From a virus, in IMG/VR virus record IMGVR_UViG_3300032323_001293, positions 1 to 42,896 of that record: a stretch of DNA of 42,896 nucleotides. One strand, 5' to 3'. Positions within the stretch are counted from its first letter, which is position 1; every line of letters starts with the position of its first letter. The notes under the pieces are model-generated. The model was not told the origin of the DNA and did no database searches. It worked only from the letters and a program-made list of their open reading frames with translations. A program made the translations under genes and the position numbers. Of this stretch, positions 3,993-29,536 are shown in pieces.

Positions 3993-6900
3993 ATGGCATT
4001 GGTACTTAAAGATCGCGTCAAGGAAACAACCATAACAGCGGGCACAGGCACGGTGACGTTGGCTGGCGCAGTTGCGGGATTTCAGTCCTTTGCCGCTGTC
4101 GGTAACGGTAACGAGACCTTCTACGCCATCGTGGATGTGGTTTCTGGCGCTTGGGAAGTTGGTGTTGGCACCTACACAGCCTCTGGCACAACCCTGTCCC
4201 GTACCACCGTGGTGTCATCCAGCAACGCTGGCTCGTTGGTGAACTTTCCCGCTGGCATCAAGGACGTGTTTGTCACGTACCCATCGTCGCGGGCGGTGTA
4301 TTTGAACGCAGCAGGTTCTGCCGTTTCGGCGCTGGACATCGGCACTTTGGGTGCGAGCACGGCCAACATCACCACAGCCAACATCACAGCAGGCACAATC
4401 ACCACGCCTCCAGTCAACAACACGGACATCGTCAACAAGCAGTACGCTGACGCTATTGCGACGGGCATTCACTTCCACGAAGCGGTGGACTTGGCCACCA
4501 CAGCAGCACTCCCAGCAAACACGTACAACAACGGCACATCCGGGGTAGGGGCAACGCTCACAGGTAACGCCAACGGCGCTCTGTCGGTGGACTCAACGCT
4601 CACCGTGGTTGCAAACCGGATTCTGGTCAAGAACGAAGCAAACGGCTCCCGCAACGGCGTCTACGTTGTCACACAGGTTGGTTCTGCCGGAACGCCCTAC
4701 ATCCTGACCCGCTCAACAGACATGGATTCTGTTGGAACCGGGGTTGACCAGATTGACGAGGGTGACTTCTTCTTGGTGACCAGCGGCACGGCCAACGTCA
4801 ACACCGCTTGGGTGCAGCAGACCCCACCTCCGATCACCATCGGCACAACCGCGATTGTGTTCCAGCAGTTCTCTGCGCCGATCACTTACACGGCAGGCAC
4901 AGGGCTGAGCGAGTCACCTTCCTACACGTTCAACATCACCAACATCGGCACTGCGGGCACATACGGCTCCGCATCGTCGGTTCCCGTGATTACCACGAAC
5001 GCACAGGGCCAAGTCACTGGCGTCACACCAACGGCGATTGCTATCTCTGGTTCGGCGGTAACGGGTAATATCACAGGGCAAGCTGGCTCGGTGGCCAACG
5101 CTCTGACGGCAGGGAGTTTCCTGACCTCTGGCGGCACGTACAACGGTTCTGCTGCCCGGACATTTGCTGTGGATGCCACGGACGCCAATACAGCATCCAA
5201 GGTCGTTGCGCGTGACGCATCGGGTAACTTCAGTGCAGGGACCATCACAGCCACACTGAGCGGTGCGGCTACGAGCGCAACCACAGCCACCAACCTTGCA
5301 GGGGGCGCGGCCAACCGGATCGCGTACCAGACGGGGGCGGGGGCCACAGCATTCGCTGTTGCACCCTCGGCATCCAACCAAGTCCTGAACTGGAACGGCT
5401 CTGCGTTTACATGGTCTGCCGGAACGATCTCTGGCATTCCGCTGGGCAGCAACTTGAACACGCTGACGTTTGGCACTTTCCTGACCGGCACAAGCTACAA
5501 CGGCTCCGCCGCCGTCACGATTGCCACCAACGCCACATCAGCCAACACAGTCTCTACACTTGTGGCTAGGGATGCTTCTGGCAACTTCAGTGCAGGTACG
5601 ATCACTGCTGCACTGAACGGCAACGCATCAACAGCAACAAGCGCCACCAGCGCAACCTCGGCTACGACTGCCACAAACTTGGCAGGTGGTAGCGTTGGCA
5701 CGATCCCTTATCAATCAGCGGCCAATACCACGGTGCAGCTTGCCGCAGGCACATCAGGACAGCTTTTGCAATCCAACGGTGCGGCAGCACCTTCGTGGGT
5801 AGCAGCTCCGGTTGTCAACAACGGCACTTTGACAATGAACGTGTCGGGCACCGGCCTTTCTGGATCGCAGACATTCACTGCCAACCAAGCAGGTGCAGCG
5901 ACATTCACCGTCACATCAAACGCAACGAACGCAAACACCGCCTCGACCATTGTGGCTCGTGACGCCTCTGGCAACTTCAGCGCTGGAACGATCACAGCGG
6001 CACTGAGTGGAAACGCAAGCACTGCCACCAGCGCAACCTCGGCTACAACCGCCACAAACTTGGCGGGTGGTGGCGCAGGCACGATTCCTTACCAGTCGGC
6101 TGCCAACACAACTGTGCAGCTTGCTGCCGGTACTTCGGGACAGCTTTTGCAATCGAACGGCGCAGCCGCGCCGTCATGGGTTGCTGCTCCCGCCGCTGCA
6201 AACAACGGCACTTTGACCATGAATGTGTCAGGCACGGGCCTGTCTGGTTCGCAGACTTTTACGGCCAACCAAGCGGGTAACGCGACGTTCACTGTTACCT
6301 CGAACGCGACGAATGCCAATACGGCCAGCACAATCGTTGCGCGTGACGCTTCGGGCAACTTCAGCGCTGGGACCATCACTGCTACGCTGAGCGGAAACGC
6401 ATCGACTGCCACCACAGCAACTTCAGCAACGAGCGCAACCTCAGCTACGACTGCCACAAACTTGGCAGGTGGTGGCGCAGGCACGGTCCCTTACCAGTCA
6501 GCGGCCAACACCACTGTTCAGTTGGCAGCAGGTACTTCGGGCCAAGTGTTGCGCTCCAACGGCGCTGCCGCCCCTTCGTGGGTTAACGGCACAATTTCTG
6601 GAATAGCGCTCGGCAACAACTTGAACACCCTGACAATGAACGTGTCGGGTACAGGTCTGTCCGGCTCCAATACCTACAACGGCTCCGGCGCGGCGACGTT
6701 CACAGTCACCTCGAACGCGACGAATGCAAACACCGCCTCGACCATTGTGGCTCGGGATGCTTCTGGCAACTTCAGTGCTGGCACGATTACAGCCACACTG
6801 AGCGGTGCGGCTACGAGCGCAACCACAGCGACCAACCTTGCGGGTGGTTCTGCGGGCACGATTCCTTACCAGTCGGCTGCCAACACAACTGTTCAGTTGG

Positions 6901-17371: not shown

Positions 17372-19573
17372 ATGCTCGGACTTAACGTCAACAAGATCAC
17401 ATCCATGCTGGCGAAGCTGGCAGACAATGCGTTGCAGGGATACGCGGCAATGCACAAGGGCAATCCATACATTTTGTCGCTTGCAGTGGCCGAGGCAAAC
17501 CGCCGTAAAGAGCTGCGTGCAGCCGGGAGCGCACAGGCTGCGCAACCGCAACCAAAAGTGGCAGATGTAGCGATTGCAAACATGACCTTGCCTGAACAAC
17601 AAGGCATTGGGGCTCTGCCTGCAAACAACATGCAGTTTGCGGCCGAAGGCGGCATTTTGGGGTACGCAGATAACGAAGAGCCTGTGCAGATGATGGCCAA
17701 GGGCGGTAGGACAAACATGTACGGCGACGGCATGTCGATGTTTGACAGTGCGTTGGATCGAGAAAACGTGACAAATCCTGCCGAACGTGCGTTCCTAAAA
17801 GCCATTCACGTTCAGGAGTCTGGCGGCAAAGCACGCGCAAAAACGTCCAACCGAGAAGCGCACGGCGCGATGCAAGTTTTGCCAGCTACGTTTAAGGCGA
17901 TGGCTGATCCGGGCATGGACATCAATGACCCCATGGACAACATGCGTGCGGGGATACGGTATGGGCGACAAGGCTTTCGCGCTGCAAAGGGCGACCCTGT
18001 GTTGGCCGGAGCGTTTTACTACGGCGGCCCCGGCGGCATGCGCAAACTTCAGCGCGGCCAAACCGTGTCGGACCCCAAGAACCCCCGCGCTCCAAACACT
18101 TTGCAGTACGGCGAAAGTGTTGCCCGCAGAATGCAGCAAATTTTGGCCGGGTCACAGACAAGACCTCCACAGCCTGCGCCAGCTGCGCCAGCTGCGCCAG
18201 ATGTGCCGCGTACACGCGAAATACCGCCTATGCTGTTTGCATCTGCGCCCCAGAGCGCAGGCATTCCGTCGCACAGCGAAGCGCCTATCGGTGATGTTCG
18301 GATGGGGCAGCACGCAGGGATCGAGGACGCCACACGCTACCGCGCCGCAGATCAGGCCATGGCTTCTGCCCAACAACCTACACAGATGATGGCGGGCGGC
18401 GGGCACATCCCCCGCTACAACGGTGAGTTTGATTCTGTCGTGGGCATAAGCCCCGAGTTTGGGGGCGAACCGCCAGCGCCATATGTTGCGCCACCAGACC
18501 AAGCATCTATGCGCAAAGTGGCGGCTTCCCCGTATGTGCAGCAGGGTCCTCGCAGCGCGGAAGAGGTGGCCATGCTGCGGCGATACCCAGTTCCGGTTAA
18601 AGCAGGCAGCGCAAAAGCGCGTCCAGACCTCGTCCAAAACGAAGGTGCGGGAGGTGCGGGAGGTGCGCCTTCGTACGCTGCCCCAAGCATGGACATCTCC
18701 AAAATGTTCACATCGGCCATGGACAGCATGCAAGGTAGGGAGCACCCGCAGGCAAAAGAAATTGAAGCGCTGGGGAAAGAAAGCGTGAAAGCCGCTGAAG
18801 CAGATGTGGCAGGACTGGAGGCCATTCACAAACGCTTTGAGGACATCTTCAAAGGTCGCCGTGAGCGTCTTGGCACGCGTGAAGAAGAAGTGGGCAAGCT
18901 CAAAGAAGAAGCAGGCCGCATGGCAATGATCAACTTTGGTTTGGCCATGGCACAAACGCCCGGAAAAGGTTTGAGCGGCCTACTGAGCGGTCTGACTGCG
19001 GGTGCCAAAGCGGGGTCTGCAGAGTACGCCAAAGGCATGGACAAGTTCCGCGCAGCGCAAGAAAAACTCAACGATGCAAAAGATCGCTTGGAAGAGATCG
19101 AGGCTGGACGTGCTGAGATGACTGCCCGCGAACTGCACAAGGGGCGCATGGCTGTGCGCACAGCAATGCTTGGCGCACGGAAAGACATGATCAACGCCAA
19201 CATGGAGATGTTCAAGCTTAACGAAACAAAGGGCACGAAATTGTTTGATGCCCAGATGCAGCTGGGGCTTGAGCAATTACGGCAGTCAGGTGCAAACGAA
19301 CGCGCCGCTATGCCTACGGGCGAAGCGCGCACGTACATGATGCTGGGTGAGGGGCGCACGGACAAAGAGCGCTTCACCTCTGGTTTAGCCCAGTTCAAAG
19401 AGATGATGGGCGACAAACAGGGGTCGCAAATGTTCAAAATGTTCTTGGAGACAAACGCTGACCGCGCTAAAAACGCGTTGCCGCCACTCTCTCCTGAGCA
19501 GTTTAGAAAGCAGTCCGCTGCATTCTACGGACCGCCGACAGCGATTGACATCGCAAACCCCACTCGGCAATAA
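17372..19573 (+). CDS. Virion-associated lytic transglycosylase (SLT/GH23 domain)
   Basis: 733 residues, AAGGAA ribosome-binding site. Residues about 138-245 form a soluble lytic transglycosylase domain: catalytic Glu149 in 'IHVQESGGKARAKTSN', 'GAMQVLP' at 165-171, and 'LAGAFYYGGPGGM' at 211-223. It should cleave peptidoglycan locally during genome entry. The N-terminus contains an Ala-rich helix and Gly motifs (AEGGILGYAD, MMAKGGRTNMYGDG). Residues 430-640 are a charged coiled-coil region ('EVGKLKEEAGRMAMINFGLAMAQTPGKG', 'KLNDAKDRLEEIEAGRAEMTARELHKGRM'). It is separate from the lysis endolysin and sits between the other internal proteins and the giant protein, as in T7-type ejectosomes. Confidence 0.88.
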   Translation: MLGLNVNKITSMLAKLADNALQGYAAMHKGNPYILSLAVAEANRRKELRAAGSAQAAQPQPKVADVAIANMTLPEQQGIGALPANNMQFAAEGGILGYADNEEPVQMMAKGGRTNMYGDGMSMFDSALDRENVTNPAERAFLKAIHVQESGGKARAKTSNREAHGAMQVLPATFKAMADPGMDINDPMDNMRAGIRYGRQGFRAAKGDPVLAGAFYYGGPGGMRKLQRGQTVSDPKNPRAPNTLQYGESVARRMQQILAGSQTRPPQPAPAAPAAPDVPRTREIPPMLFASAPQSAGIPSHSEAPIGDVRMGQHAGIEDATRYRAADQAMASAQQPTQMMAGGGHIPRYNGEFDSVVGISPEFGGEPPAPYVAPPDQASMRKVAASPYVQQGPRSAEEVAMLRRYPVPVKAGSAKARPDLVQNEGAGGAGGAPSYAAPSMDISKMFTSAMDSMQGREHPQAKEIEALGKESVKAAEADVAGLEAIHKRFEDIFKGRRERLGTREEEVGKLKEEAGRMAMINFGLAMAQTPGKGLSGLLSGLTAGAKAGSAEYAKGMDKFRAAQEKLNDAKDRLEEIEAGRAEMTARELHKGRMAVRTAMLGARKDMINANMEMFKLNETKGTKLFDAQMQLGLEQLRQSGANERAAMPTGEARTYMMLGEGRTDKERFTSGLAQFKEMMGDKQGSQMFKMFLETNADRAKNALPPLSPEQFRKQSAAFYGPPTAIDIANPTRQ

Positions 19574-19639: not shown

Positions 19640-22600
19640 ATGGCAAAAGCACTCCCTCTACCAGACGGCACAACTGTAGCAATTCGTGAGGGGGAGACCC
19701 CTGCGCAAACATGGGAGCGTGCTCAGCGCATGTACCCGGAAGCCTTTGGGTTTGACAAAGAAACAGAAGAAGGCCCTAAGCAAGACACCAAGGGATTCAA
19801 GGCTGCGGCTTCCGCAGGCTTCACCCGTCTGGGCGGCGAATTCGAGTTGCTCAAAGGCAAGGTAGGAGCTCAAAGCGAAGCCGAGGCGCAGCAAAAATAC
19901 GAAGCGGCCCAGAGACGCGCACAGGAGCGCTTCACCCCCACCGAAGAAGGCTGGTCTGAAGCCCCATGGCAAAAATTCAAGGAGACTCTTGGCGGGTCTG
20001 TACCCTACATGGCCGCCCCTGCGGCTGCCGGTCTTGCTGCACTGGCTCTCCCCGTGTCGGCCCCTGTTGCGGTAGGCGCGGGCTTGCTGGGTGCGGGCGC
20101 TGTCTCTACAGGGCAGTTCACTGGCTCTAACCTTGCCCGTCAAGTCGAGACGGGTAAATCACTGGAAGAAGCCAGTGGGGCAGCCGCCTTTGGCGCAGCC
20201 ATCCCCCAAGCCTTGATTGACACTGCTGCTATGGCGTTGCTGCCCGGTGTGGGCAAGCTGTTCGGCTCCGTGGGCTCCAAGCTGACAACCGAGCAGGCCA
20301 AGGCCATTGCCAACCAGACGCTGAGCAAGACCGCCATGGACTACACCGCCAAGACGGGCATGGCCATGGGCCGCGAAGGTCTCACCGAAGTTGTGCAACA
20401 GTCGCTTGAGCGTCTGCAGGCTGGCTTGAATATCGCTGACCCCGAAGCCCGCGAAGAGTACATCGAGAGCTTTATTGGTGGCGCTGTGTTGGGCGGCGCT
20501 ATCGCTCCTGTAGGCCGTGCCATCGAGCGCAGCGGAGCCAAGACACAGGCAGCCAGAGCCGAGCGTGATGAGCGCAACGCCGCTGCCAAAGTCGCTGCTG
20601 AGCAAGAACGTATTACCGCTGAAAAAGAGGAAGCCGAGCGTCAGACCCCTGAGTACGCGCTGCGAATTGTCAACGAACAGAATGCGCTGGAGCAAGAAAA
20701 GATTGCGCTGCAGCAGCAAGTGCGCAAAATCGCCAAGGACTCGCCCACCGAGGCAGAGGACAAAGCGTTCAACAAAGAAATCCAAGCGCAGCTCAACGCC
20801 AACGCCGCTGCTCGAAACGAACGTGCCTCAGAAGTCTCCCGCGTAAAGCAGTCCGGCCTGTACCAGCAAGCACTGGAGCAGGAGCGTGTGGCAGGTCTGA
20901 CGCCTGAAGAGTACGCGCTGGAACAAGCAAGACCCGTCAGCGACAGGGCTGTAAAGGCAGCGGAGCCCGATCTTGAAGGCTACTACGAGCAGCAAATTCT
21001 TGTCCCAAGCGAAGAGCGCCGCAAAGCGGAAGAAGCTGACCGCGCCCGCGCTGCGGCGGTCCCTGCCGCATATGCCGCCGAGCGCATGGAGTTGGCCCGC
21101 GCCCAGATGTATGAGCCATCAGGGCAAGACTACGTTGACTACCTGCTGCAAGACCCGTACAAGGCAGGGCTCGTGATTGAGACCAAGACGCCACTGCCCG
21201 GTTTGACGTCCAGCGAGAGCAGCTTGATCCGCAAAGAAGCTGCCAAGCGCCTCAAGGCCATGAGCAAAGAAGAGCTGGCTGCACGTCAAGCAGAGCTGCA
21301 AGGTCAGCAGGTGAGCGCAGAACCAGCAAACCCCATGGCTGCTTTCATGGAGCAGTCTGACGCGCTGGATGTGGATCGTCGGCAAGGTCTCACGGATGCA
21401 GATATTGCGTTTGCTGAGCGGCAAGCAGCGATGCCAACCACGACAATTACGCAGGGCGAGTTGTTTGGCGGTGCGGAGCAACGCGTCAACATGCCCCAAA
21501 CCGGGACTCCGGTGGACATCAACGCGCAGATTGCCGAGTTGGAAAAACAACTGGATGTGGCCAAGAGTTATGGCGCACCTGACTCTGCTACCCGCCCAAG
21601 CGATCGTGAAGGCCGACGTGCAAACCGCGAACGCGTGTCTTACCTCATAGAACAGATCAAGGATTTGAAAGCACGTCAGGCCAAGATTGAAGCGGGAGCC
21701 CCAATGGGGGGCGACACTGACGCCGTACGTGCGTACATTGCCGCCGGAACTCCCGAGCGTGCCCCCAACCAGACAGTTGAAGATTGGTATGCCAGCCTGC
21801 CAGAAAACGCAGGCACCATGTCAGCACTGCCAGAGCAAGAAAAAGCCCGACGCGAAGCAGCGGACGCCCGCACTGCTGCGGCACAAGATGTCATCCTGAA
21901 TCGTCAACAAGACCGTCGCGAAGCGGTTATCGGTAATCTGCTCAAAGAAATTCAGGCGGTGCGTGGCCGACTCAAGCCGGAGACCATCACGCAGATCACC
22001 CGAGATGTTGACGCCATCCTCAATAAACCTGAAGACTCCGATGCGGCGCTGCGGGCTTTGGATGATTTGAGCGCTCGCTGGCGTGCAGGTACGCAACGTG
22101 GAAAATTTGGCGCTGCGGTCCCCACCCCAACCCAAACCAGCGAAGACATGCTGCGCACGCAAATGGATCGTGTTTTTGCGCAGAACGATCAGAGCACCCG
22201 CACTGAGCGCCGCGAGAAGTACGGTCCGCAGGACATGGCGTTGCTCCGCCAGATTGCCGACAACTTCAAAGCGTTTAGCGCCAGCCCAGAGCGTCGCAAC
22301 ATGGCGGGTGAATGGCTCAACCGCTTGACTACAACCGGCCGTTCCAGCCCAGAGATGTCCCGCGACTTGCAAAACGAGTTGGTACGACTGGAGCAAGGCA
22401 AGCGTTCCGAGACAGAGAAAGGCCGCACCGCCGTCCAAGGCGAGCTGGACGCTGAACTCATGCCAGAAGCCGTCGCTCCTCAGTCTGAGACCCGTGTGGT
22501 CAAAGGCAAGGTGCAGTACGTCTCTCCCGAAGACGTCGGCCCGTTGCAAGGCTCTGCCGCTGAGCGCTACGCGCCAATTCAAAAGGGCGTCATTTTTGAT

Positions 22601-25600
22601 ACGCCTGAAGAGCTTGACCGCTACTTGGCCAGCGACTACTTGAAAGAAGCGCGGGAGAACCAAGGCTTAGCCCGTGAGACGGTGTCCCGTTTAAGCAGAC
22701 AAGTCACAGAGTACGAGACCAAGATCGCGGACACGCAAAAGCAAATTGACGCGCTGCAAGAACGTAGGTCGGAGCTTCAAACCGTGCAAGTGTCTGAGCG
22801 CCGTGCCGCTGACAAAATTATTGCCGACACAGAGGTTCAGCTTGCCAATTTGCTCACGCAACTGGCCGACGACCTTGGCTCAATCCGCATGGCGTACGAG
22901 CAGGCGGAACTCAATCTGGCTGCGGCCGAAGCACGCTCCGAAGAAACCAGCCGACTGATTGCCAACAACATTGCCAGCTTTGAGTACATGGACAACAAGG
23001 TGGTCCGTGCTGCGGAAGCCACTGTTGCCGCAAAAGCGGAACTGCGCAAGGCCCGCAACAAGTTGGGCAGTCTGGAAGAAAAGCGCCCTGCCATTGACGA
23101 AGCACAACGCAAAGTGATTGACGCTTTGCAGCGCCAGCGCAACCCGCTCTTGTACGAGATGCAGGAGAAGATGCAGGACCTGCAAAAACGACAATCACTG
23201 GCGCGGGTCACGCAGCCACGCACGGTTGAGCGGCTTCAAAAAGAGATTGATGCGCTGGAAGACTTGATGGACATGCAGCGGGATAACCCGTACGTGCCCT
23301 CTTCGGCCATGGTTACGTTCTTGAACAACGATTTGCAGTTGCAAATGGACGCCATGCAAGACCGCCAAAAGATTGGTGCCGCCAAACGCTCTGTCATCCA
23401 CTTCAAGAAAAAGCTGGACAAAGCGGCTGCCGATTTGAAGGTGGACATCTCTACGCACCCCGAAGTTAAAGCACTGCGTGAGCAGATTGGCATAGTCAAA
23501 GAACGCGGTACCGACGCGCTGCGCGGCGTAGAAGGTGAGCTGGCACTGTTGGACTCCGAGATCGAGAAGGCCCAGCTTGCACAACAGGCTGCCCAGCGCC
23601 AAGCGGACAACATTGAAGACCAGATCATCAAAGCGGGAGAGGAGCGTACTTTTGCCGGGCAGCTTGCCGCTGGTACTCCCGATACCCGCTCAGCGCTTGA
23701 CCGTGCCGAGGCATTGGCCAAAGACAAGCAAAAGTTGGAAGAGTTCCAAGGCCGCACTGAGCGCCTTGCTGCACTGCCCGGTCAGCGCATCGACTTCAGC
23801 AAGCGTCAGGAAATGTTGCAGATGGTCAACGCGGCCACCGAAGACTTTGCTCAACTAGACGCAGACATAGAGGCTTTGCGTGAAGGCGTTGAAGAGTTGC
23901 AAGTGCGCGACCATTTCATGCACGAAGAGATGCTGGACCTGCAGGATCAGGCCAAGTCGTTCCGTGGCCCACGCAAGAACAGCAAGGCAGGCAAAGAACA
24001 TTTTGCCAAGATGGAAGAGCACAAGAAAAAAATGGAGGAGAACAACAAGCGCATCCAGTCTTTGCGCGACTCCATCACGCAGTACGAGAAGACCCGCGCC
24101 ACCAAGCAGGCAGCGTTGGCCAAAGCTGAACGCGCTACGTCGAGTGATCCTGAAATTTATCAGGAGATCACCAAGTCAATTGACGCCCGCATGGACAAGC
24201 TGGACAAGACCATTGCAGGCAAACAAGCTGCGGTTGTCAAAGCGGATGCCGCTATTCTGGAGATGGCCCGTGACATCAAGGCCAAGGCAGACGAGGGCAA
24301 GACTGCCCCAGAGAAACTGGCCAAGATGCGCGAGCGCCTCAAAGTGCTCAAGGCTTCACAAGCTGACCGCAAAAAACACCTGAAAGAGTACACCAAGGAA
24401 CGCGACGTGCTTAAAGCCCGCCGTTCCAACCGCTTGGGCATTACCCGAACAGACGTGCTCACTGGTAAAAATGTGGCAGGTGGGCGCGGTAAAAAAGCCA
24501 CCCTCACTGAGCAAGAACTCATGGACGCCGAAATTGATCGCGTGCAGGAGTTGGCCCGCGCTCAAGAGCGCAAGGCGGAGATGGACAAAGGCATGGCGGC
24601 TTTGCAAAAAGCCAAAGAACCAAAGACCGAAGCCAAGAAGACCGAGCGGGCCGACCGCATCGCCAAACTGCAAGCCGACATCAACAAGCAGCAGAAGCTG
24701 ATTGACTCGCTGCAACCCAAAACAGTGGGCGCTGTGTCGCAGGCCACCAAGATCGAGTCCAGCGCCCCCGCAAAGCTCCGCGCAGGTACTGCCGAGACCA
24801 AGGCGCAGCCCGGTGTTTCCCGTCGCCCGATCGTGGAGACCCGTACCGTTGCGCTGCCAACAACCAAGCAAGCCATCAAGGATGCCAACGCGTTTGCAGC
24901 CAAGATTGCTGCGGCAAAAACAAAAGACCAGCGCACCAAGCTGGTGGCGGAGCAGAACGAAGCAACGCTTGCGGATATTGAAGATGCTCTGTACAACAAC
25001 GTCGAGCGCCAAGAGCAGCGCATACTTGCTTTGGAACAAGAACGAGAGCAGTTAAAAGGTGCAAAAGGACCCGCAGCAGTTGCCCGATTTGATGAAATCA
25101 ACAGAGCGCTGCAAGGGGGAAGGACTGCGGACGGGAATGTTGTTACAAAGACGTTCTACGATTATTTAGCACTGGCCAAAAAGAAGTTAGCCGATTTTGA
25201 AGCAGCGCTCGCAGAGGCTGAAACGCCGGGCATTACAGAAGCCGAAGCCAAAGAAGACGCTGAGCGTGCCGAGTATGGCGCGGCGATTACTAAGCTCGGT
25301 GAAGTTAAAGGCGGCACTGGGGTCAGCAATTTTGATATGGGCGTTTCTACGGACAACTCTACCGGTTTTGAGTTCTCCCGTGGCGCACCTGCGGATGGTG
25401 GGCAAACCGTAGCGGCGCTTGAAAAAGCGTTGGACAAAGTTGTGGGCGATCCCGGTGTTGCAGGCAAACGCATCAAGATTTTCCAGTCCGTCAGCGACTT
25501 GTTCAACGACCCCGCTTACAAGTATGACTACGACGGAGCTGACATTCCTGCGGATGCTAAGGCGTTTGTAAACCCGAAGAACGGGCAAGTGTTTATGTTT

Positions 25601-28600
25601 GCCGACAACATTGGCAAAGGCGAAGCGCTTGGCGTGTTACTGCACGAAGTTGGTGTTCACGTTGGCTTCCGCAACCTGTTCAACAAAGCGCAGTACGCAC
25701 GTCTGGTGTCTGCTGTAAAAGGCTGGGCAAACCGCACCGACAACTCTTTGGAAGCGCGTATTGCCAAACGCGCAGTTGCACGGGTCGAGGCAGCCGAAAC
25801 CACAGCCGCTCAGTACGACGATGAGCTGTTGGCATACACCGTGGAAGAGGCCATCAAGGCCGGAGTCAACCCTGACGCGCTGCAAGGCGGCAGCCCAATC
25901 CGCAACTGGCTGAAAGCTGTAATGGATGTATTGCGTAACGCGCTGTCCAAGTACGGCATCAATACCAAAAAGCTGACGACTGGCGACCTTGTCAACATGG
26001 CGTATGGCGCAGCTCAGTTGGAGTTGCGTGGCACATGGCACGGTAGCGACGCCGAGTTCACAGCTTTCAACACCAAGTATGCTGGGGCCGGGGAAGGTGC
26101 CTTTGATCTGCGTTTTGAAGCAGAAAAGTCGCTAGGCGTAGGGCCATACACAACACCTAACAAAGAGTACGCAGAGTACTACCAGCACGCAGTGCCGTTT
26201 GGTAAAGCGGCCAACGAGTCTGGCTACGGCAATCAGACGTATCAAGACTACCGCGCTTTTGACGAAATGTTTATGACAACGCCCAACGACGCCTTGTCTA
26301 CGGCGTATGTGCAGACTAAATTTGAGTCACGTATTCTTACAGCCTATCTAAGGGGTGTGAGTGAAGGGCAGTCGCTTGACCCTGCAAAAAACAAAAACGC
26401 ACGGGAAATGCTGGACCGTTTGCAAAAAGGTGCGCGTGATGCCAAAGAGCAAAAAGCGGTAGTCACGTTGTCGTTGGAAAAAATTAAGGCGCTCAAAGAG
26501 TATCCGGCAAAAGGCAATCTGTACCGCACCCTTGATGACATCCCTCGTTCTCGCATCTACTCCGTAAACTCAAACTTTAAGTTTGGCGAACGTCCTGCAA
26601 TGGATGCGTTGCTTCAAAAATACGGCAGAGACTGGGTAAAAAGCGAGGCCAAAGAAACAGGCTCATACCCCGCCAACATTGTGTTTTTTGACATGCGGGA
26701 AAAAGTTGGCATTAAAAAAACCACGCAGATTCTAAAAGCCGCCGGAATTGATGCGATTGAACAAAACAACGAGCGCGGTAAATACGTTGAGCGTGCTTAC
26801 ATTGACCAAGCGCCAGAGATTCTTGCCATAAACCTTAAGCCTGTTGGCCCGGCCACAGGCAAAGGGCGTCCCGGTTCTGGCAGTTTGCTGTTCTCTCGCG
26901 GAGCACCTGCCGACGCATTGGAAGCGTTGTCGAAAAAAATCATTGCACAACCCAAGACGCTCAAGGAAAAGCTGGGCAACAACCTTGCGCTGCAAGCTGA
27001 GATGCAGGCCGTGGATATGCGGGCTGGTTTGCGTGACGTACTCAAGTTTGGCGACGACACCCTGTTTACACAGGCCATGTACCACGTGCGCAAGGCTGAG
27101 CAGAAGATGGCGCAGATGTTCACCGTGATGAACAGCGGCCCGCTGGTGGCATACAGAGACGAGAAAGGGCTTGTCGGCTACCGCAGCTCCAACCAGAACA
27201 GCGCTCGGGAAGTGTTCGACGCTATCGCGGACGTTCCCATTGACGACCCGCAACTTAAGACAGACCTCACACAGGCGTACTTGGTCGCAGTTCGTGCCAA
27301 CAACAAGGGCTTGCCCAAGCTGGACTTGGGTGCGATGAAGCTGGAGCAATCGGAATTGGACGCTGCCTTGGCTGCCGCCAATGCCAACAAGCCATTGAAA
27401 GATGCGCTGGAGAATGTGCGCCGCAAGTACAGCGCGTACAACAAGGGCATGATCGAGTTCCTTGCCAGCACCGGGCGCATCTCCAAAAAAGAAGCAGCTG
27501 AATTGCTCAAGGAAGGCGACTACGTTCCCTTCTACCGCGTGGATGAAGACGGCAAAGCTGCTCTGGTCTTCAACAACAACGTCACGTTCAACGTGGGCGA
27601 CATCCGCCGCCAGCCATACCTCGAAGAACTCAAGGGTGGTGAGACCAAACTGTTGCCCCTGAACGAAGCCATCCAGCGTAACACTTTGCTGCTGACAGAC
27701 ATGGCGCTGACCAACAATGCCACCAAGAGTGTCGCCTACGGTCTGCAAGCACTGGGCAAAGGTAAGGGTCCTGTTGACCCCAAGACAGGCAAGCCTTCAA
27801 ACTTGATGGCCATCAAGAAAGGGTTTGGAAAAGATGACGCCCGTGTTGTGCGCTTCTACCAAGAGCCGGACCCAAATGATCCGAAAGACGACGGCAAGCG
27901 CCACATCGTGGTCGATACAAAGGGTACGCTTGCTGAAGGTATTCCTGCTGAATTGGTGGTGCAGAGCTTGGAAGGCGCAAGCCTTGCGCTGCCCGGTTTC
28001 TTGCAATTAGGCGGTGCTGCTGCCGACTTGCTGCGTGCTGGTGTGACCCGTACCCCGCTGTACATTGCACGCAAGCTGATCCGCGAACCTATGGCAGCTT
28101 CCTTCACGGGCGGTCTGAACACCAACACGTTCTCCTCTGTCTTCAAGGCGGGCGCTGAATTCTTGCGTATGAGCACTGGCAGCAGCGACGCACAGGCCAA
28201 GCTGATTGAGAAGGGTTTGATCCAGTCCAACATCTTCGCAGGCGACATGTCTGACATGAAGAAGATGGCGCTCCAGCTTGCCAGCGGCAAAGACCAGAGC
28301 GTGTGGGAAAAAGTGTTTGCTGCAGCTGACCGCTACGCGATGCGTGCTGACGCCGCCACACTGGCGCTGGTGCTCAAGAACGCCGAAGCCAACGGGTTGT
28401 CAGAGGTCGAGGCCGACATGATGACCATGGAGTCGATGAACTTCTACAAGCGCGGTCTGTCGCCCACACTGCAGTACGCCAGCCGCTTGATTCCGTTCTT
28501 CAACGCGCAGATTCAGGGTCTGAACGTGTTGATCAAAGCTGCACGCGGCAACATGCCGTTTGAGGAACAGCAGGAGATCAAACGCAAGTTCTTCAACAAC

Positions 28601-29536
28601 GCGCTGCTGTTGACTGCCACAGGTCTAGTGTACGCCATGGCCATGGAAGACGACGAGACCTTCCGCAACGCACGCCCACGGGACAAGTACTCCAACTTCT
28701 TCATGCCCATCCCCGGCGTGGAGGAACCACTGAAGCTGCCAATCCCGTTTGAAGCAGGTTACTTCTTCTCGCTGGCCGTGGCGGCAGTGGACAGTATGCG
28801 TGCCGAGACCGATGGTAAGGCGCAGTGGCAAGCGATCCGTGACTTGTTCTTGGGCTCTATCCCCGGCTACTCATCCATGGGTATGCCGCAGATCGTCAAG
28901 CCCGCGCTTGAGGTGTGGTCCAACAAGAACTTCTTGACAGGCGGCAACGTGGAATCTCTGCGCCTACAAGGACTTGACCCAGAAGAGCGATACCTTGCCA
29001 CAACTACGGAGCTGGCCAAGCAGATGAGCAAGGCCGTGCCGCTCTTGTCACCCATCCAGATCGAGCACCTTGTGCGCGGTTACTTGGGCGTGCTGCCTCT
29101 GGCTGCCGCTGCGGGAGCCAACAGTCTGTTTGAGCGCGAGGGTAAGGGAGAAAAGCCTGCGGGCCGGGCGTCTGACCTGCCGCTGGTGGGCGCAACCTTC
29201 CAGAAGAAATACGGCGGCGCAGATGCCGACGTGGTGTTCCGCGAAGCAGAGGAAGCCATGACCGCCCGCAGCACGCTCAACAAGATGTTGAGCGAAGGCC
29301 GCAGAGAAGAAGCAGCGGAGTACCGCGACAAGCACCGCGTCGAGCTGGCCATGGCTTCTGCCGCAGGGCAGTACCGTCAAGTGATCGGACGCATCAACGC
29401 AGACATTCGCCGCACTCAAGAGCGAAACGACCTGACGCCAGAAGAAAAGCGCCTACGCTTGGATGAACTGGACAAGGCCAGACAGAACCGGGCTGAAGCG
29501 TTCCTCAAAATGCAGCGGGCAATTGAGGCGAGGTAA
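19640..29536 (+). CDS. Giant 3298-residue polyvalent virion protein (metallopeptidase + ADP-ribosyltransferase-like)
   Basis: About 360 kDa in one uninterrupted frame; its ribosome-binding site is weak (TTTGAG). Residues 1-40 hold 'LPDGTTVAIREGETPAQTWERAQRMYPEAFG', a short module at the start of many phage ejected proteins. About 118-155 and 265-290 are Gly/Ala-rich hydrophobic segments. Residues about 300-1880 are mostly charged coiled coil. H2002-E-V-G-V-H2007 is a zinc metallopeptidase motif of the polyvalent-protein type. From H2134 (WHGSDAEFTAFN, then GAGEGAFDLRF) comes an ADP-ribosyltransferase-like domain. FSRGAPAD occurs at 1912-1919 and 2418-2425, bracketing these two. Residues about 2440-3280 contain 'GDYVPFYRV' and 'LYIARKLIREPMAASF', resembling LPD38-type C-terminal domains. 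It is probably packaged and injected; host target unknown. Confidence 0.85.
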   Translation: MAKALPLPDGTTVAIREGETPAQTWERAQRMYPEAFGFDKETEEGPKQDTKGFKAAASAGFTRLGGEFELLKGKVGAQSEAEAQQKYEAAQRRAQERFTPTEEGWSEAPWQKFKETLGGSVPYMAAPAAAGLAALALPVSAPVAVGAGLLGAGAVSTGQFTGSNLARQVETGKSLEEASGAAAFGAAIPQALIDTAAMALLPGVGKLFGSVGSKLTTEQAKAIANQTLSKTAMDYTAKTGMAMGREGLTEVVQQSLERLQAGLNIADPEAREEYIESFIGGAVLGGAIAPVGRAIERSGAKTQAARAERDERNAAAKVAAEQERITAEKEEAERQTPEYALRIVNEQNALEQEKIALQQQVRKIAKDSPTEAEDKAFNKEIQAQLNANAAARNERASEVSRVKQSGLYQQALEQERVAGLTPEEYALEQARPVSDRAVKAAEPDLEGYYEQQILVPSEERRKAEEADRARAAAVPAAYAAERMELARAQMYEPSGQDYVDYLLQDPYKAGLVIETKTPLPGLTSSESSLIRKEAAKRLKAMSKEELAARQAELQGQQVSAEPANPMAAFMEQSDALDVDRRQGLTDADIAFAERQAAMPTTTITQGELFGGAEQRVNMPQTGTPVDINAQIAELEKQLDVAKSYGAPDSATRPSDREGRRANRERVSYLIEQIKDLKARQAKIEAGAPMGGDTDAVRAYIAAGTPERAPNQTVEDWYASLPENAGTMSALPEQEKARREAADARTAAAQDVILNRQQDRREAVIGNLLKEIQAVRGRLKPETITQITRDVDAILNKPEDSDAALRALDDLSARWRAGTQRGKFGAAVPTPTQTSEDMLRTQMDRVFAQNDQSTRTERREKYGPQDMALLRQIADNFKAFSASPERRNMAGEWLNRLTTTGRSSPEMSRDLQNELVRLEQGKRSETEKGRTAVQGELDAELMPEAVAPQSETRVVKGKVQYVSPEDVGPLQGSAAERYAPIQKGVIFDTPEELDRYLASDYLKEARENQGLARETVSRLSRQVTEYETKIADTQKQIDALQERRSELQTVQVSERRAADKIIADTEVQLANLLTQLADDLGSIRMAYEQAELNLAAAEARSEETSRLIANNIASFEYMDNKVVRAAEATVAAKAELRKARNKLGSLEEKRPAIDEAQRKVIDALQRQRNPLLYEMQEKMQDLQKRQSLARVTQPRTVERLQKEIDALEDLMDMQRDNPYVPSSAMVTFLNNDLQLQMDAMQDRQKIGAAKRSVIHFKKKLDKAAADLKVDISTHPEVKALREQIGIVKERGTDALRGVEGELALLDSEIEKAQLAQQAAQRQADNIEDQIIKAGEERTFAGQLAAGTPDTRSALDRAEALAKDKQKLEEFQGRTERLAALPGQRIDFSKRQEMLQMVNAATEDFAQLDADIEALREGVEELQVRDHFMHEEMLDLQDQAKSFRGPRKNSKAGKEHFAKMEEHKKKMEENNKRIQSLRDSITQYEKTRATKQAALAKAERATSSDPEIYQEITKSIDARMDKLDKTIAGKQAAVVKADAAILEMARDIKAKADEGKTAPEKLAKMRERLKVLKASQADRKKHLKEYTKERDVLKARRSNRLGITRTDVLTGKNVAGGRGKKATLTEQELMDAEIDRVQELARAQERKAEMDKGMAALQKAKEPKTEAKKTERADRIAKLQADINKQQKLIDSLQPKTVGAVSQATKIESSAPAKLRAGTAETKAQPGVSRRPIVETRTVALPTTKQAIKDANAFAAKIAAAKTKDQRTKLVAEQNEATLADIEDALYNNVERQEQRILALEQEREQLKGAKGPAAVARFDEINRALQGGRTADGNVVTKTFYDYLALAKKKLADFEAALAEAETPGITEAEAKEDAERAEYGAAITKLGEVKGGTGVSNFDMGVSTDNSTGFEFSRGAPADGGQTVAALEKALDKVVGDPGVAGKRIKIFQSVSDLFNDPAYKYDYDGADIPADAKAFVNPKNGQVFMFADNIGKGEALGVLLHEVGVHVGFRNLFNKAQYARLVSAVKGWANRTDNSLEARIAKRAVARVEAAETTAAQYDDELLAYTVEEAIKAGVNPDALQGGSPIRNWLKAVMDVLRNALSKYGINTKKLTTGDLVNMAYGAAQLELRGTWHGSDAEFTAFNTKYAGAGEGAFDLRFEAEKSLGVGPYTTPNKEYAEYYQHAVPFGKAANESGYGNQTYQDYRAFDEMFMTTPNDALSTAYVQTKFESRILTAYLRGVSEGQSLDPAKNKNAREMLDRLQKGARDAKEQKAVVTLSLEKIKALKEYPAKGNLYRTLDDIPRSRIYSVNSNFKFGERPAMDALLQKYGRDWVKSEAKETGSYPANIVFFDMREKVGIKKTTQILKAAGIDAIEQNNERGKYVERAYIDQAPEILAINLKPVGPATGKGRPGSGSLLFSRGAPADALEALSKKIIAQPKTLKEKLGNNLALQAEMQAVDMRAGLRDVLKFGDDTLFTQAMYHVRKAEQKMAQMFTVMNSGPLVAYRDEKGLVGYRSSNQNSAREVFDAIADVPIDDPQLKTDLTQAYLVAVRANNKGLPKLDLGAMKLEQSELDAALAAANANKPLKDALENVRRKYSAYNKGMIEFLASTGRISKKEAAELLKEGDYVPFYRVDEDGKAALVFNNNVTFNVGDIRRQPYLEELKGGETKLLPLNEAIQRNTLLLTDMALTNNATKSVAYGLQALGKGKGPVDPKTGKPSNLMAIKKGFGKDDARVVRFYQEPDPNDPKDDGKRHIVVDTKGTLAEGIPAELVVQSLEGASLALPGFLQLGGAAADLLRAGVTRTPLYIARKLIREPMAASFTGGLNTNTFSSVFKAGAEFLRMSTGSSDAQAKLIEKGLIQSNIFAGDMSDMKKMALQLASGKDQSVWEKVFAAADRYAMRADAATLALVLKNAEANGLSEVEADMMTMESMNFYKRGLSPTLQYASRLIPFFNAQIQGLNVLIKAARGNMPFEEQQEIKRKFFNNALLLTATGLVYAMAMEDDETFRNARPRDKYSNFFMPIPGVEEPLKLPIPFEAGYFFSLAVAAVDSMRAETDGKAQWQAIRDLFLGSIPGYSSMGMPQIVKPALEVWSNKNFLTGGNVESLRLQGLDPEERYLATTTELAKQMSKAVPLLSPIQIEHLVRGYLGVLPLAAAAGANSLFEREGKGEKPAGRASDLPLVGATFQKKYGGADADVVFREAEEAMTARSTLNKMLSEGRREEAAEYRDKHRVELAMASAAGQYRQVIGRINADIRRTQERNDLTPEEKRLRLDELDKARQNRAEAFLKMQRAIEAR

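Follow-up and report, generated by a model that had tools for sequence, protein, structure and literature searches.

The window, meaning the whole stretch of DNA analysed (an IMG/VR virus record of 42,896 bases), carries on its plus strand one frame for a protein of 3298 amino acids. The initial annotation had placed this frame at 19640–29536, and its exact coordinates and strand were recovered. Base composition by codon position carries a coding-frame signature across 19640..29536, and homologues in other contigs extend along the entire protein at 46–82% identity; thus the frame is a real gene. It lies in the late gene cluster, after the tail and lytic genes. The neighbourhood includes a block of structural and tail-fibre genes, one of them encoding an S74-type spike protein, as well as an endolysin and, directly upstream of the giant gene, a 733-residue SLT protein that matches phrog_2013 (lytic tail protein, PHROGs) and is the probable partner ejection protein of the giant. 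In the window the SLT domain belongs to this separate gene (17372–19573), whereas in Burkholderia phage JC1 the giant itself carries it as an N-terminal fusion. The opposite strand holds a replication block (primase, helicase, exonuclease and DNA polymerase). This arrangement is compatible with a short-tailed or similar phage. None of the window proteins scanned was recognisable as a terminase, portal or major capsid protein, and the record (1–42896) may be a fragment. Rfam and tRNA scans over the window were empty, and a scan of bacterial genome contigs for relatives gave four distant matches only. The features of the locus are listed below.

17372..19573, plus strand: upstream neighbour, 733 aa, with an SLT lysozyme-like domain at residues 137–229 (PF01464, E 2.8e-9)
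19640..29536, plus strand: ORF of the giant polyvalent protein, 3298 aa (ATG start, 0 internal stops, full-length homologues)
19640..21289, plus strand: conserved N-module, aa 1 to ~550, common to relatives with different middles (32 loci)
20018..20104, plus strand: Gly/Ala-rich hydrophobic segment, aa 127–155, one segment, candidate for membrane insertion
20537..25339, plus strand: predicted coiled-coil region, ~aa 300–1900, charged, aromatic-poor and helical in character
25373..25384, plus strand: upstream cassette-edge motif FSRG, aa 1912–1915, invariant in the class A alignment, proposed cleavage site 1
25397..26014, plus strand: zincin-like metallopeptidase domain of class A, ~aa 1920–2125, from alignment and profile comparison
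25643..25660, plus strand: HEVGVH (HExxxH) active-site motif, aa 2002–2007
26030..26854, plus strand: ART-like domain, probably a divergent ART-PolyVal, aa 2131–2405, with candidate residues H2134 and Y2170
26891..26902, plus strand: downstream cassette-edge motif (LL)FSRG, aa 2418–2421 (LLFSRG 2416–2421), proposed cleavage site 2
26912..29533, plus strand: conserved, mostly helical C-module, aa 2425–3298
28661..29188, plus strand: LPD38 domain (PF18857), aa 3008–3183, E 4.6e-24

Several activities are combined in this one chain (zincin-like, ART-like, LPD38 and coiled coil), as is characteristic of polyvalent proteins, and the earlier description of a polyvalent protein with metallopeptidase-like and probable ART-like domains and an LPD38-like C-terminal region stands. 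LPD38 is the single Pfam domain found in the giant and scores 86 bits against a gathering cut-off of 27. In PHROGs, residues 2768–3286 match phrog_18222 (E 5.7e-38); an NCBIfam search gave no useful family. The coiled-coil region differs in length among relatives and contains a weak SMC coiled-coil match at aa 1317–1596. The C-module is predicted to be mostly helical (AlphaFold2, pLDDT 67). The LPD38 giants of cultured phages are distant from the window protein; in JC1 gp69 (4515 aa) the LPD38 domain lies at 4196–4401 (E 1.9e-33), and the C-terminus of gp69 aligns with the window C-module at a probability of 97.8% (hhalign, E 7.8e-13). Mass spectrometry of JC1 virions purified in CsCl identified 51 unique peptides of gp69 (PMC9144972). 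Homology to this virion protein supports the virion location claimed in the initial annotation, and the window giant is probably a virion component that is ejected into the host.

The HEVGVH motif is located at 2002–2007 as first annotated, but it is of the HExxxH form, exceeding the classical HExxH zincin motif by one residue. Iyer et al. (2017; PMC5512222) described this variant among polyvalent-protein MPTases. Across 23 aligned zincin sequences, most of them only 16–21% identical to the window protein, H2002, E2003, H2007, G2009, E2062, A2065 and E2069 are invariant; E2062 (25823–25825) is the best candidate for the third zinc ligand, with E2069 as the alternative. Relatives carry at least six zincin classes: A (HEVG[VA]H), B (HExxGH), C (HEGTH/HEGIH), D (HELLH), E (HEM[GS]H) and single types. 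The class A and class B domains are homologous to each other, given their profile match (probability 96.9%, E 1.5e-10) and shared invariant residues. No class A relatives were found among cultured phages. The domain is an obligate part of these proteins: a zincin motif (HExxH or HExxxH) lies N-terminal of the C-module in 52 of 53 complete proteins, with exactly one in 51, and appears in the same place in 1.5% of shuffled proteins. The lone complete relative without it is an 883-aa ORF.

Fragments of the window protein gave no metallopeptidase or ART match in Pfam, even at E 10, and neither the zincin nor the ART-like domain was recognised by Pfam, PDB-sequence search or Foldseek. The AlphaFold2 model of the cassette (pLDDT 60 overall, about 60–80 in the zincin part) has a helix, strands, the HE helix and a second Glu helix, the order expected of a zincin, but neither this model nor that of the C-module had any Foldseek match in the PDB at E ≤ 0.001. 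Since both models are of low-to-moderate confidence (60 and 67), they are given little weight and no structural claim is based on them.

The WHGS at 2133–2136 and the ART-like stretch from H2134 lie where they were first located. The assignment to ADP-ribosyltransferases is probable through a chain of relatives, but not through any direct family match of the window domain, for which no hit was found in Pfam at E 10, in the PDB or in profile searches. The homologous cassettes L128 and L137 have weak ART-PolyVal matches at the HG motif (E 0.004–0.02). In a tblastn search L137 in turn hits phiGT1 gp5 (E 8e-4) and the MD07 giant (E 3e-5). These two reach ART-PolyVal at 1e-6 and 1.2e-5, slightly short of Pfam's cut-off, and show the pattern HGS/T...GTGEGAQ...GLYF...VVFDD that is typical of the family. 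Their ends, NYVVFDD and NFVVFDD, resemble NYVDF in L128. In addition, L093 carries an unmistakable ART-PolyVal (E 2.3e-28) in the slot occupied by the window ART-like domain. H2134 and Y2170 are invariant in 10 sequences, and the acidic position (YVE/YVD) is ambiguous. An unrelated domain showing the HG...Y pattern by chance would explain why all the direct searches fail and why the AlphaFold2 model resolves no fold over 2131–2405; however, it would account neither for the L128 and L137 matches at the HG motif, nor for the bridge through phiGT1 and MD07 with its shared ends, nor for the clear family member in the equivalent slot of L093, and is considered quite unlikely. Thus, on sequence evidence, residues 2131–2405 probably form a divergent member of the ART-PolyVal superfamily. 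They share with ART-PolyVal (PF18760) the HG...GxGEG...GxGxY pattern, the polyvalent-protein setting and the slot filled by a clear member in L093, and differ in reading GVGPYTTP where the family has GWGLYFA, in carrying a long insertion and in falling below the Pfam threshold altogether.

Comparison with relatives indicates that the middle of the giant, a zincin here accompanied by a probable ART, is a cassette that has been swapped as a unit among related phages. When viral contigs were scanned by part, 36 loci were retrieved with the C-part and 32 with the N-part, but only three contigs, all nearly identical, with the middle. These sets differ because the ends are shared and the middle is often replaced: giant ORFs mapped on the window protein have residues 1 to ~550 and 2411/2425 to 3298 in common, with the stretch between often exchanged. 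Further scans brought the set to 69 C-module proteins free of redundancy, of which 53 are complete (the ORF closed by stops at both sides inside its own contig). Near-identical C-modules occur with unlike cassettes in L107/L146 (97% against 26% identity), L110/L029 (99% against 35%) and L118/L116 (90% against 29%, with 88% in the N-part). Conversely, L099 and L120 are 98% identical in the cassette and 61% in the C-module. The domain order, which had been thought a possible distinct variant, is therefore one variant, but one among many with a swappable middle.

Between similar backbones the swap boundaries are sharp, with DNA identity dropping or rising no more than about 30 bases from a short motif. 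At the upstream edge, identity in 30-base bins falls from 70–100% to 20–40% in L022/L106 and L114/L094, and the breakpoint is the base preceding the aromatic residue of the upstream motif. At the downstream edge, identity rises from 20–47% to 100% in L110/L029, from 23–37% to 93% in L107/L146, and from 3–33% through 77% to 97% at the C-module start in L118/L116, where the shared residues start at KAQFGSD, directly behind LFSR in one protein and TYRT in the other. The upstream DNA comparison was uninformative for L118/L116, L110/L029 and L128/L093, which have no gap-free alignment there; their protein linkers are visibly similar as far as the upstream motif.

Other cassettes carry further sequences in this region. 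Directly behind the class A (HEVGAH) zincin, L099 (~aa 1896–1915), L022, L026, L096, L098, L120 and L141 have an internal MSRRTFLRGAVxAVG stretch that resembles a twin-arginine (Tat) signal (Pfam TAT_signal, E 0.02) and is kept in L141, where the C-module shares only 55% identity with that of the window. In class C (L051, L115, L124, L125, L154 and L157), about 850–900 residues of unmatched sequence lie between HEGTH and the C-module, with YAR at both ends, and this insert is probably a large novel effector.

The motifs at the cassette edges are specific to the zincin class. In class A, FSRG precedes the zincin and LLFS[RK] precedes the C-module, both invariant or nearly so within variable linkers. 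The pattern [FY]S[RK] was found in 20/20 class A proteins upstream and 20/20 downstream (0.2 and 0.1 expected), [FYL]R[TSVL] in 23/26 and 21/26 of class B (3.3 and 1.3 expected), and [FY]AR, as YAR, in 6/6 and 6/6 of class C (about 0 expected). Expected counts derive from the remainder of the same proteins and, since the patterns were defined on the counted sequences, which are themselves related, serve as a guide and not as p-values. By a stricter count, an identical aromatic tripeptide stands on both sides in 14/16 proteins of class A, 8/22 of class B and 5/5 of class C, against 0.6–2.9% elsewhere in the same proteins. These counts were used instead of a BLOSUM 5-mer test for shared flanks, which had little power because charged linkers score high by chance. 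No matching motif on both sides was found in classes D, E and F.

A stronger argument than the expected counts lies in the contrast between class and pattern and in the outliers that covary. One class's motif occurs in another class 0 or 1 times, never above expectation, and outliers change on both sides together (FYSRG with LYSKG in L137; YRLK with FRLRK in L055 and L056). The F, S and R codons vary synonymously among members and between the two copies within one gene, and selection therefore acts at the protein level. Class A zincins keep FSR with an ART companion (the window) or an unrelated insert (L099), and LLFSR persists where no ART accompanies the class A zincin. In L093, where a zincin of class B has an ART beside it, the motif is YRSK. 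Thus the motif travels with the zincin and not with the zincin's neighbours.

Flanks of a related kind are found in cultured phages. The zincin of JC1 gp69, DTALGVLLHEAFHQG, is near that of the window, EALGVLLHEVGVH, and is flanked by SFSVSPSP (around residue 3350) and RFSVSAQQ (around 3600). Among 15 cultured phages checked, 13 have [FY]S on the downstream side of the zincin (26% expected) and 8 on the upstream side (30% expected), the upstream count being weak taken alone; D274 and CF418P1 have no flanking motif. The name "PLxRFG protein" used in Klebsiella phages corresponds to a PL[AS]RFG motif downstream of the zincin, which is present in five cultured giants of Klebsiella, Serratia, Ochrobactrum and Pseudomonas phages (L176–L178, L175 and L180) and was not found in the JC1-type giants checked. 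The Bacteroides phage BF1-TP2 (L172) has a distant HEVVGH zincin with the class B-like VRFRSIGD upstream and VRFREAKT downstream.

These patterns can be put together in a proposal of self-excision. The giant would travel in the virion and enter the host by ejection. Its N-module would serve as the stable ejection or membrane part, followed by the long coiled coil, and an exchangeable enzyme cassette (the HExxxH zincin and the divergent ART-like domain) would precede the stable LPD38 C-module. The zincin would cut the giant at FSRG 1912–1915 and LLFSRG 2416–2421, freeing a zincin–ART piece of ~507 residues from the N-terminal ejection part and the LPD38 C-part, and the freed ART would modify a host protein, as T4 Alt does. 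Cut sites and peptidase would be inherited as one unit, so that a new cassette would work in any backbone. The modular build, the swap boundaries, the obligate zincin and the class-specific flanks are seen directly in the sequences, whereas in this proposal we infer the cleavage and its timing, the activity and target of the ART and the ejection of the window protein. An ejected giant whose zincin cuts at its own flanks and releases zincin–ART is given an even chance of being correct. The broader idea of a self-excising effector cassette, in which a zincin sits between two copies of its own site and is exchanged whole, so that any payload fits a fixed backbone, is offered tentatively and rated slightly below even. 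Of the two host-directed enzymes proposed in the initial annotation, the ART probably does act on the host, but the peptidase is better explained as self-processing than as a second effector, because the flanking motifs change with the zincin.

The giant might instead work uncut, with zincin and ART both host-directed effectors and the motifs serving as structural ends of the zincin, such as paired strands. The virion RNA polymerase (vRNAP) of phage N4 speaks by analogy against self-cutting, as it has a zincin-like domain and is packaged full length and unprocessed (PMC5512222; cryo-EM preprint PMC12633501). Domain ends would likewise move together with the cassette, which counts against the cut-site reading, and the distance from the upstream motif to the class A zincin is similar throughout (81–104 aa). 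However, the downstream motif in class A proteins with an ART lies ~280 residues past the zincin end, beyond the ART, and in L099 it lies behind the unrelated insert of ~190 residues; pairing intrinsic to the fold is disfavoured because it would not skip an entire domain. The AlphaFold2 cassette model, a weak one, also puts both window motifs in disordered segments (pLDDT < 50). Overall, an uncut giant is judged unlikely.

The motifs might also be sites for another protease, either of the host or of phage head maturation, or marks of recombination, with the zincin not acting on them. They do lie at exact recombination edges, and a prohead protease matures ejection proteins in other phages (PMC10052503). 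Yet the motif switches with the zincin class where the backbones are nearly the same, which a fixed host or phage protease would not call for. A stretch of twelve bases is less than ordinary homologous recombination needs, and different codons are used in the two copies and in different members. Such explanations are regarded as improbable, below an uncut giant. Candidate cut sites become readable from evolution, as the cassette-edge motif changes with the peptidase class. This suggests how phages could swap injected enzymes and keep the ejection machinery intact, and it offers a rule for finding new injected effectors, namely to read the sequence between two motifs.

The giant is a phage polyvalent protein of a known kind, and what is new is a swappable, probably self-processing cassette with class-specific edges. 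Self-processing of polyvalent proteins by their MPTase was already proposed by Iyer et al. (2017; PMC5512222). The giant multidomain build, a zincin-like MPTase of the HEXXXH variant, a probable ART of the H-Y-D type and the phage-restricted LPD38 are common to the proteins described there and the window protein. Cut sites or flanking motifs are not named in the passages of that paper searched, and no cut site for polyvalent-protein zincins was found in the literature searched, whereas the present analysis locates the cassette borders, the zincin-specific flanking motifs and the swap breakpoints. Novel here are the positions of the candidate sites and the way they covary with the peptidase, and these sites make the 2017 processing proposal directly testable. 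JC1 gp69 and the DarB-like giants of the Bcep22-like phages are also close. JC1 gp69 resembles the window protein in its LPD38 C-terminus, homologous C-module and adjacent zincin, here with FSVS flanks, and is present in virions; in contrast, it has an HExxH zincin (HEAFH), helicase and methylase-like domains and an N-terminal SLT fusion, and no ART was recognised in its cassette slot. The vRNAP of coliphage N4 (gp50) is of similar length and is ejected; its N-domain is of the membrane type, and its zincin-like C1 is followed by a large helical C2 (PMC12633501), but it carries an RNA polymerase, for which the window giant has no Pfam or PHROG match, and is packaged uncut. Homology between the C-module and C2 of N4 vRNAP was rejected (hhalign probability 0.5%). 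T4 Alt, an injected ADP-ribosyltransferase that modifies host RNA polymerase (discussed in PMC5512222), provides a functional precedent for an injected ART; it is of the R-S-E type, stands outside the polyvalent proteins and is likened to the window ART by function alone.
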